Part shown: in pieces, positions 4,455-54,238 of the stretch
How the letters are laid out: every line of letters starts with the position of its first letter
Position numbering within the stretch: the stretch's first letter is position 1
Source of the DNA: an uncultured Bacteroidales bacterium
Lineage (GTDB): Bacteria; Bacteroidota; Bacteroidia; Bacteroidales; Bacteroidaceae
Direction of reading: 5' to 3'
DNA length: 64,000 nucleotides
NCBI GenBank assembly: GCA_902773055.1
Contig: CACYCZ010000091.1
Location: forward strand, 1 to 64,000
Translations under genes and position numbers: made by a program
The notes under the pieces: generated by a model
Told to the model about the DNA's origin: nothing
The model's input: only the letters and a program-made list of their open reading frames with translations
Database searches by the model: none

Positions 4455-4699
4455 AAACGTATTATGTATTGATGCTCATTAAGTGCGAAAATACAAATAA
4501 AATGTGAAATATAAATGTGGTAAATGAGGAAAAAAGATGTTTTTTTATTGTCAGCCAATAGATTTCCTTTTCATTTTCCGGGTCGGTGTGCAATCTTGCA
4601 TAGCTGTTGTCAGCCCACTCACTGATTGCAGTGTTGTGTATATATGCTAAGGGGAATATGCTCTGTAGGCCATTCTGAGGCGTTATTGGCGCTATGACG

Positions 4700-4789
4700 T
4701 TTATGTTTACCATTGCTGAATGTATGTTCCGCGACGCTGAACGTATATTCCGCAACGGTGAACATATGTTCAGCATCGGTGAATATAAA
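4700..4789. repeat. 90-bp 21-bp-period dyad element, copy A
   Basis: Units in order: TTTATGTTT, spacer ACCATTGCT, GAATGTATGTTC, spacer CGCGACGCT, GAACGTATATTC, spacer CGCAACGGT, GAACATATGTTC, spacer AGCATCGGT, GAATATAAA. The copy is 90 bp long and lies in the 639-bp gap between the divergent GDPD (4454) and surE (5094) genes, where I see no other gene apart from a -7 promoter motif near 5063. The open frame across it at 4462-4884 on the minus strand encodes a heptad repeat caused by the 21-bp period and is rejected as a gene. Confidence 0.9.
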
Positions 4790-5062
4790 ATGTATCGCGG
4801 AGAAAATCCATTTCTGATGGTACAGAGTGTGTTTTTCAGCGGCCTGTATTGAAATGTCATGCTGATGTGCAGTTGCATGTGCATGAGATTTCGATAAAAA
4901 GATATTATGTGACGGGGGCTGTGATTATGGGCTTTGTGAAATGAGCGTCAATTCATTCTGGGTACGGGCCGTCGGGGGAGTATGGCGGAAATATGTATTG
5001 GCCGATCAAGGCATAATTGCACCGACCGAGAGAAGAACCCCTTATGATTGATAGTTTTTTCG

Positions 5063-11679: not shown

Positions 11680-11805
11680 ATCTTTTTCCGGGATTAATTT
11701 ATGATGTAAATTGGAAAATCAGCATGAAATAATAAAACATTAACCATGCCAAAACACCTTCCGTGTAAAAAAAGTTAGGTTATTTGATTTTTTTTCTGAT
11801 TTTAT

Positions 11806-11836
11806 TTTGCGGGAAATGGAAAAGATTGTAATTTTG
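11806..11836 (+). promoter_or_regulatory. promoter of tRNA-Gln
   Basis: TTTG at 11806-11809 and TAATTTTG at 11829-11836 are separated by 19 bases, matching the Bacteroidetes -33/-7 pair TTTG-N19-21-TAnnTTTG. The tRNA begins 14 bases after the -7 box. Confidence 0.7.
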
Positions 11837-11850
11837 CAGGTGATAACGAT

Positions 11851-11921
11851 TGGGATATGGTGTAATGGTAACACTGCAGATTCTGGTCCTGCCTTTCCTG
11901 GTTCGAGTCCGGGTATCCCAA
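11851..11921 (+). tRNA. tRNA-Gln (anticodon CUG)
   Basis: A complete cloverleaf can be drawn by hand. The acceptor stem TGGGATA (11851-11857) pairs perfectly with TATCCCA (11914-11920), with discriminator A at 11921. The D stem is GTGT/ACAC, the anticodon loop TTCTGGT gives anticodon CTG at 11883-11885, and the T loop is TTCGAGT. The pair next to the anticodon loop is an A-C mismatch. CCA is not encoded; the next bases begin a terminator hairpin. A minus-strand open frame (11740-12246) reads antisense through it and is not a gene. Confidence 0.95.
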
Positions 11922-11966
11922 CAGAAATAGGGCGCTGAAAATTTTTCAGTGCCCTATTTCTGTTTT
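11922..11966 (+). terminator. Rho-independent terminator after tRNA-Gln
   Basis: A near-perfect inverted repeat of about 18 bp (AGAAATAGGGC... with ...GCCCTATTTCT, tip AAATTT) starts directly at the tRNA 3' end and ends in TTTT. One G-T pair is the only irregularity. Confidence 0.85.
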
Positions 11967-12075
11967 GCCAATCACCAATGCTATTGTCAGGCAGATATGT
12001 TTTTCTTCTGTTTTCAGGATAGTGGAAGATGTTGTTTCCTGACTGCTTCTCAGAAGCGTCGTCCTGGGGATATTG

Positions 12076-12165
12076 TTTATGTTTACCGATGTTGAATGTA
12101 TGTTTCCCGTTGCTGAACGTATGTTTCGCATCGGTGAATGTACGTTTCGCGATGCGAAACATAGA
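12076..12165. repeat. 90-bp 21-bp-period dyad element, copy B
   Basis: Units: TTTATGTTT, ACCGATGTT, GAATGTATGTTT, CCCGTTGCT, GAACGTATGTTT, CGCATCGGT, GAATGTACGTTT, CGCGATGCG, AAACATAGA. It lies between the tRNA-Gln terminator and the 3' end of the convergent symporter gene at 12227. Same length and unit phasing as the other four copies. Confidence 0.9.
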
Positions 12166-12226
12166 TTTTTCAGGCTTGGAGGATGTCATACCATACTGGT
12201 CAGAAATGACTGACAGGCTGATGTCG

Positions 12227-13183
12227 TTATGATTTTGGATTGACAAGAGGGGATTTGTCTGTTTGGCTCCTTGTGTACAGACGGGCTACGATGGCACCGC
12301 TCAGGTTGTGCCATACGCTGAATACGGCACCGGGAATGGCAGCCATGGGGTAGGCGGCAAAATGGAGTGTGGCGAGACTTGAGGCCAGGCCTGAATTCTG
12401 CATGCCGACCTCGATGCTGACGGCTCGTCGTTTCGTGGCGGTCATACCTGCCAATCTGCCGATGGTATAACCCAGGCAGAGGCCGCATACGTTGTGGAGT
12501 ATCACGACCATGATGATGGTCAGTCCCCCTGCCTGCAGTTTCGGGGCATTGGCGGCAATCACGATGAGCACTATGCTGCAGATGGCCAGTGTCGACAGGG
12601 CCGGCAACCAGGTTGTGGCCTGTTCTGTCAGTTGCGGCCAGAGACGCTTTGCCGTCAGACCGAGCACGATGGGCAGGATGACAACCCAAAGGATGCTCAT
12701 CAGCATGCCTGTGACATTGACATCGACAGCTGTTCCAGCCAATAGCCATACCAGTAGCGGTGTCATCAGTGGAGCCAGCAGTGTGGAAGTGGCGGTCATG
12801 CCTACCGACAGGGCCAGGTCGCCTTTGGCCAGATAGGTAATTACATTTGATGCCGTTCCGCCCGGACAGCAACCTACGAGTATTACGCCAATGGCCAATG
12901 CCTTGTCAAGGGCAAAGACCTGAGCCAGCACCCATGCGAGCAGGGGCATCACCGTGAACTGTGCGGTACATCCTGTTATAATATCCCTGGGGCGGCTGAA
13001 TACAGTACGGAAGTCGGTGAACCTGAGATTCAACCCCATGCCAAACATGATCAGGCCCAGCAGGGGATTAATCAATATGGTCTTCAGGTGGCTGAACAAA
13101 TTGGGTTGCCAGAACGCCAGTACTGCTGACAGCAGTACCAGTAACCCCATGTAGTCTGAAATCAATTTGCAGAGTTGTTTCAT
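12227..13183 (-). CDS. bile acid:sodium symporter family protein (SBF/BASS)
   Basis: A 318-residue polytopic protein with nine or ten membrane segments. The SBF (PF01758) hallmarks are visible: the MFGMGLNLRFTDF segment about 47-59, the GCCPGGTASNVITYLAKGD motif about 102-120 lining the sodium sites, and EVGMQNSGLASSLA about 253-266. Members of this family move bile acids, pantothenate, pyruvate or other organic anions with sodium; the substrate cannot be read here. It stands alone, transcribed away from the metallophosphoesterase gene behind a terminator. Confidence 0.9.
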   Translation of the reverse strand: MKQLCKLISDYMGLLVLLSAVLAFWQPNLFSHLKTILINPLLGLIMFGMGLNLRFTDFRTVFSRPRDIITGCTAQFTVMPLLAWVLAQVFALDKALAIGVILVGCCPGGTASNVITYLAKGDLALSVGMTATSTLLAPLMTPLLVWLLAGTAVDVNVTGMLMSILWVVILPIVLGLTAKRLWPQLTEQATTWLPALSTLAICSIVLIVIAANAPKLQAGGLTIIMVVILHNVCGLCLGYTIGRLAGMTATKRRAVSIEVGMQNSGLASSLATLHFAAYPMAAIPGAVFSVWHNLSGAIVARLYTRSQTDKSPLVNPKS

Positions 13184-22645: not shown

Positions 22646-22735
22646 TTTATGTTCCCCGATGCTGAACGTACGTTCTCCGTTGCGAAATGTATGTTTACCG
22701 ATGCTGAACGTATGTTCAGCGACGTGGAATATAGA
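22646..22735. repeat. 90-bp 21-bp-period dyad element, copy C
   Basis: Units: TTTATGTTC, CCCGATGCT, GAACGTACGTTC, TCCGTTGCG, AAATGTATGTTT, ACCGATGCT, GAACGTATGTTC, AGCGACGTG, GAATATAGA. It lies in the 472-bp gap between the convergent ksgA and response regulator genes, beyond the ksgA terminator. GAACGTACGTTC is a perfect 12-bp palindrome. I see no gene in the rest of the gap. Confidence 0.9.
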
Positions 22736-39277: not shown

Positions 39278-39367
39278 GTTATGTTTACCGACGCTGAACG
39301 TACATTCACCGATGCGAAACATACGTTCACCGATGGTGAATATACGTTCAGCATCGGTGAACATAAA
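39278..39367. repeat. 90-bp 21-bp-period dyad element, copy D
   Basis: Units: GTTATGTTT, ACCGACGCT, GAACGTACATTC, ACCGATGCG, AAACATACGTTC, ACCGATGGT, GAATATACGTTC, AGCATCGGT, GAACATAAA. The left and right halves are near reverse complements over the full 90 bp, so this copy could form one long hairpin. It lies in the 386-bp gap between the alpha-galactosidase 3' end and the GDSL gene start; nothing else is seen there apart from a minus-strand TATTTTTG at 39092-39085 upstream of the GDSL operon. Confidence 0.9.
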
Positions 39368-54148: not shown

Positions 54149-54238
54149 TTTATATTCCCCGATGCGGAATGTACGTTCCCCAATGCGAAACATACGTTCA
54201 GTATCGCGGAACATACATTCACCGACGCTGAATATAAA
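54149..54238. repeat. 90-bp 21-bp-period dyad element, copy E
   Basis: Units: TTTATATTC, CCCGATGCG, GAATGTACGTTC, CCCAATGCG, AAACATACGTTC, AGTATCGCG, GAACATACATTC, ACCGACGCT, GAATATAAA. It lies in the 297-bp gap between two convergent genes (stops at 54054 and 54352), where no other feature is evident. Confidence 0.9.

Follow-up and report, generated by a model that had tools for sequence, protein, structure and literature searches.

The sites of Noc, SlmA and MatP are tens of single palindromes of ~13–20 bp spread over a chromosome, and REP/BIME elements, which go with RAYT transposases, are dispersed intergenic palindromic repeats present in many copies. A recognised and unsolved puzzle is posed by repeats that keep a constant size of two helical turns while their sequence changes. 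Specifically, Subirana and Messeguer described non-coding tandem repeats with a constant size of 20–23 nt and a variable sequence, and a protein that polymerises on DNA and stabilises the nucleoid has been proposed to account for them (PMC8161180). BrickBuilt of Porphyromonas gingivalis has a 23-nt unit, 1 to 22.8 repeats per element and 19 copies, and has been classed as a MITE whose ends are small inverted repeats (PMC4596501). The two papers searched on constant-size 20–23-nt repeats make no mention of Bacteroides or Prevotella.

The window, that is, the whole 64,000-nucleotide stretch of Bacteroidaceae DNA analysed here, carries a repeat that invites comparison with these systems. The original prediction described four inverted AYRTTY-N9-RAAYRT pairs spaced by 21 bp, or two helical turns, and both statements hold: the four pairs lie at exact 21-bp steps in positions 4702–4787 and form a real four-unit array (array A). 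Array A shows no mismatch to the sequence grammar of the element and sits between the divergent genes for a glycerophosphodiester phosphodiesterase-like protein and SurE, and promoter and terminator scans around it place nothing inside the array. The phenomenon is far larger than first described, with five arrays in the window and ~85 in the genome; Tandem Repeats Finder, which is blind to the grammar, returns array A together with four further 21-bp arrays in the window, near 12078, 22648, 39283 and 54155. The features are as follows:

4702–4787, minus strand: array A, the element first described; four units of 21 bp, both ends capped
4632–4701, no strand assigned: weak dyad arm on the low side of array A; from the pooled arm profile, with signal to ~69 bp from the array
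4788–4857, no strand assigned: weak dyad arm on the high side of array A; from the pooled arm profile
4462–4884, minus strand: 140-aa ORF spanning array A, judged spurious, a heptad-repeat reading of the array
12078–12163, minus strand: array B, four units; downstream of tRNA-Gln and the 3' end of a transporter-like gene
22648–22733, plus strand: array C, four units; between convergent genes
39280–39365, plus strand: array D, four units; between tandem genes
54151–54236, plus strand: array E, four units; between convergent genes, one mismatch to the grammar

An 84-base search pattern derived from the window's five arrays, with up to three mismatches allowed, finds 85 sites in the 2.6-Mb draft genome (153 contigs), and the reversed control finds none. 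In a position-weight scan without a mismatch limit, which covers 1.34 Mb of the genome in 34 contigs, 66 copies score between 73 and 166 bits and the best non-element sequence scores –61 bits, a gap of 134 bits between the lowest element and the next best sequence. Forty-three of these copies have no mismatch, 17 have one and five have two, and the remaining copy, which is the lowest-scoring one, is cut by a contig end. Because nothing else rises above –61 bits, the scanned 1.34 Mb holds no relics, partial copies, solo units or three-unit forms. The 59 aligned copies share one architecture: four units of pattern TRTTYNNCNNNGNNRAAYRTA at a constant 21-bp step, three complete RAAYRTAYRTTY cores, and capped ends TTTATRTT...AATATAAA. 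The element centre, GCGAAACATACGTTCACC, is asymmetric, which gives each copy an orientation. With the copies turned accordingly, the consensus and the pooled arms reveal weaker dyad-symmetric flanks, in which G+C peaks at –11, –33 and –55 mark 22-bp steps of weak half-sites; as these flanks extend to ~69 bp on each side, the feature totals ~220 bp.

Among described systems, the repeats of Subirana and Messeguer are the closest kind, with which the present arrays share the two-turn repeat length, a 20–23-nt size that is constant across arrays, sequence families that are specific to a species yet have a short signal in common (here RTAY and CRWYG-type centres) and the absence of protein coding. 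They differ from those repeats in the invariable four units per array in this genome, the capped ends and the symmetric arms, in a dyad grammar with transition-only positions, and in their even chromosomal spacing. In the same order, BrickBuilt is the nearest system: it is likewise Bacteroidales, intergenic and built of tandem units of about two turns with a flanking leader and tail in non-identical copies, whereas its unit is 23 rather than 21 nt and its unit number varies. REP/BIME elements resemble the arrays in dispersal, palindromic character and copy number, but here the array is phased at 21 bp and has neither a RAYT (Y1) gene nor a covarying hairpin. Similarly, Noc, SlmA and MatP sites are also tens of palindromic sites over a chromosome, but each present locus is a phased four-unit platform.

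The pattern of substitution points to constraint. Divergence was measured in 17 recently related pairs, recognised by their related arms; these derive from a handful of copies, so that the counts are not independent. In the arms, 146 of 850 positions differ (~17%; 100 transitions and 46 transversions), and a similar proportion is seen at the free positions of the array (82 of 476, 17%). In contrast, the 36 fixed positions differ at only one of 612 comparisons (~0.2%), and the R/Y positions differ at 63 of 374 (17%) by transitions only. Invariant positions are kept in every copy, and columns vary independently. The copies compared were found by pattern, a concern that is answered by the weight scan with no mismatch limit.

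A folded and a coding element were also considered. Array A has a strong predicted hairpin (z –6.25), yet column-shuffled chimeras fold as well as the real copies do, which makes the hairpin a by-product of the dyad consensus. No pairing register holds a Watson–Crick excess, mutual information inside the array stays at the chance level, and an apparent anti-pairing signal proved to be an artefact of unoriented copies. Because columns are independent and folding shows no excess, the element is better read as a double-stranded binding site than as an RNA or a cruciform. On each strand, most copies are by chance open in two frames and closed in the third, and the copies lie between genes. In the window, these open frames yield spurious heptad-repeat ORFs at 4462–4884 and 11740–12246. 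A coding heptad repeat was rejected: array ORFs have no Pfam match over the cut-off, and R/Y positions fall in all codon positions.

Placement along the chromosome is intergenic and even. Not one of the 59 contexts inspected falls within a convincing gene, and the few ORFs that overlap a copy score low or start at the array; copies occur between tandem, divergent and convergent genes, and their neighbours are ordinary housekeeping and surface genes. Arrays are spaced more evenly than by chance, a result obtained separately in each of two contig sets. Among the 18 intervals of the first set the minimum is 6.9 kb (P ~0.0004 under uniform placement and 0.0007 when placement is restricted to intergenic gaps), and the smallest of 14 is 6.6 kb in the second (P below 0.00005). 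With both sets pooled, 12.7 of the 32 intervals would be expected to fall short of 6.8 kb and only one does; their coefficient of variation is 0.46, where 0.86 is expected. The contigs were picked for holding elements, but the simulation fixes the element number per contig, so the regularity is not created by contig choice. Arrays recur roughly every 7–20 kb, with a longest measured interval of 35 kb. This even spacing was found in this genome only; copies in Ca. Avibacteroides are sparse, with three within 13.5 kb of one contig, and are too few for a spacing test.

The element is restricted in its distribution. No copy is present in any of 18 congeners, even with a looser pattern, and the grammar occurs in 13 of 399 family genomes (this one included) and in 9 of 30 genera. 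In a scan of named genomes, matches come from Ca. Avibacteroides avistercoris, rumen Bacteroidaceae MAGs, Segatella copri iA622, Parabacteroides faecalis and a Bacteroides MAG with a 12-unit form. Arrays in other genera mostly have four units and nearly all keep the 21-bp step; their arms differ by genome, and RTAY and CRWYG-type centres are common to arrays of different genomes. The 12-unit array lies near clpB in an uncultured Bacteroides MAG (L083:258-509) and is made of nearly identical 21-bp units, evidence that tandem duplication can lengthen the repeat. In the rumen MAG RUG14251 (L073, L074, L079, L087 and L099), the arrays have small palindromes such as CCCTTAAGGG on their flanks, and three units is the score that most of them receive.

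The arms record how the copies arose. Some copies share their arms out to ~75–80 bp and then diverge, forming subfamilies, from which it follows that copies spread by copying; this fits a mobile element as well and counts against our own model. At upp–groES, the one locus on which the empty-site comparison rests, ~75 bp separate the aligned blocks in congener G004 versus 427 bp here, and G004 is without ~350 bp that include the element, with promoter-like sequences kept on both sides. No enriched direct repeat that could be a target-site duplication is found at fixed or variable offsets among 62 copies. The dyad arms are weak and have no sharp consensus ends. Since there are no decayed copies, we argue that copies are retained for function. 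An origin from viruses, plasmids or phages was rejected, as the collections of viral contigs, plasmids and phages searched hold no array copies. At contig ends, the copies L036, L042, L047 and L061 have ~75–150 bp of one flank in common, which suggests duplication of an upstream region beside an assembly-breaking repeat.

Domain searches for a partner yielded no specific binding protein, and no gene among the LexA, ParB, Y1 transposase and HU-HIG searches follows the presence of the element. ParB is single-copy in 12 of 13 genomes searched, array-free ones included, and a Noc-like second ParB was rejected because this genome, like its congeners, has a single ParB. The array at L064:1986-2071 (G000 C1:13285) lies ~2.3 kb from the genome's single parB gene. 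HU-HIG genes lie 41 and 52 bp from arrays L081:7344-7427 and L089:4253-4336, in Parabacteroides faecalis and a rumen MAG, respectively; HU-HIG was rejected as the partner because its copy number does not track the arrays. On the other side of the L081 array, at this one locus, a serine recombinase gene ends 80 bp away.

Several explanations other than a dedicated binding protein have to be weighed against these data. The strongest competitor is a non-autonomous MITE-like element, in which the 21-bp units would be transposase sites, like those that occur in multiples at some transposon ends, and target immunity would produce the even spacing. The absence from 18 congeners, the ~350 bp missing at upp–groES in a close congener, the subfamilies with common arms and the regular spacing all accord with it. 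We nevertheless regard it as unlikely, because a target-site duplication appears at no offset, relics and partial copies are absent from 1.34 Mb, fixed positions change ~100-fold more slowly than the arms, unlike those of a freely decaying element, and the viral, plasmid and phage collections gave no hit. Plain MITE and RAYT models fit poorly. The related view of a REP/BIME-like, RNA or cruciform hairpin (a RAYT-linked repeat, terminator or transcript stabiliser) draws on the dyad symmetry and the long hairpin predicted for array A. It is largely refuted, and we consider it very improbable, since compensatory covariation exists in no register, folding equals that of chimeras, the genome has no match to the Y1 transposase domain (PF01797) and Rfam returns no match. 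The arrays might instead be operators of a large regulon controlling adjacent operons, given that many copies are divergent or upstream and that position-specific conservation fits a regulator. This is quite improbable: other copies sit between convergent genes and at a distance from gene starts, the adjacent genes have no function in common, the conserved promoter-like sequences at upp–groES are intact on both sides outside the insert, and regular spacing is not expected of a regulon.

The remaining alternatives concern which protein would bind. The elements could form a platform for a general protein, such as gyrase or a member of the HU family, as their dyad symmetry, weak periodic flanks and ~220-bp length suggest and as the HU-HIG genes directly flanking arrays in Parabacteroides faecalis and the rumen MAG would allow. 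The chance of this is slight, however, because a 21-bp rather than 10.5-bp period with invariant bases is unusual for wrapping proteins, HU-HIG copy number is uncoupled from the arrays, and congeners, which must have gyrase too, are without the element. A LexA/SOS operator array had also been suggested, and the core GAAC-RTAY-GTTC does look like the Gram-positive LexA box. This proposal finds almost no place in the data: searches found no LexA DNA-binding domain (PF01726) in this genome or in the six further genomes with arrays that were tested, inspection of the flanking genes by eye recognised none as an SOS gene, as the original prediction itself had remarked, and there are ~85 sites of four phased boxes each. 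Taken together, the invariant positions, independent columns, defined ends and fixed unit number make a phased, cooperative protein-binding array, as originally put forward, the best reading, while the recombinase offered there as an example has gained nothing positive.

Most likely, then, the elements mark the binding sites of a putative DNA-organising protein, and the role is most likely chromosome organisation rather than regulation of neighbouring genes. We propose that a putative dimeric protein recognises a half-site of about RTTYNNC, eight of which would alternate in orientation along each element. Because half-sites alternate about every 10.5 bp, four dimers would sit on one face of the helix, two turns apart, and the weaker half-sites at ~22-bp steps may extend the complex into both arms, over ~220 bp in all. 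The ~85 intact platforms, placed roughly evenly between genes, would then organise the chromosome by anchoring, bridging or domain marking. The data establish the architecture of the DNA, its conservation, the independence of its columns and its intergenic, even and species-restricted placement, from which protein binding, the dimeric and cooperative nature of the protein and the chromosomal role are inferred. That the element is a fixed DNA platform for such a sequence-specific dimeric protein, likely a chromosome-organising one, is in our judgement an evenly balanced proposition. More tentatively, and with less confidence than doubt, we picture a dedicated chromosome-organising system in which the dimeric protein acts on identical four-unit platforms, roughly every 7–20 kb and never closer than ~6.6 kb, while the specificity of protein and site co-evolves differently in each array-bearing Bacteroidaceae lineage.

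For the wider puzzle of two-turn repeats, this genome offers ~85 intact copies of fixed architecture, a readable contact grammar, even spacing and array-free near relatives, and these properties make the explanation by a protein on DNA directly testable by pull-down and ChIP. A new means of domain marking on the bacterial chromosome could come to light here.
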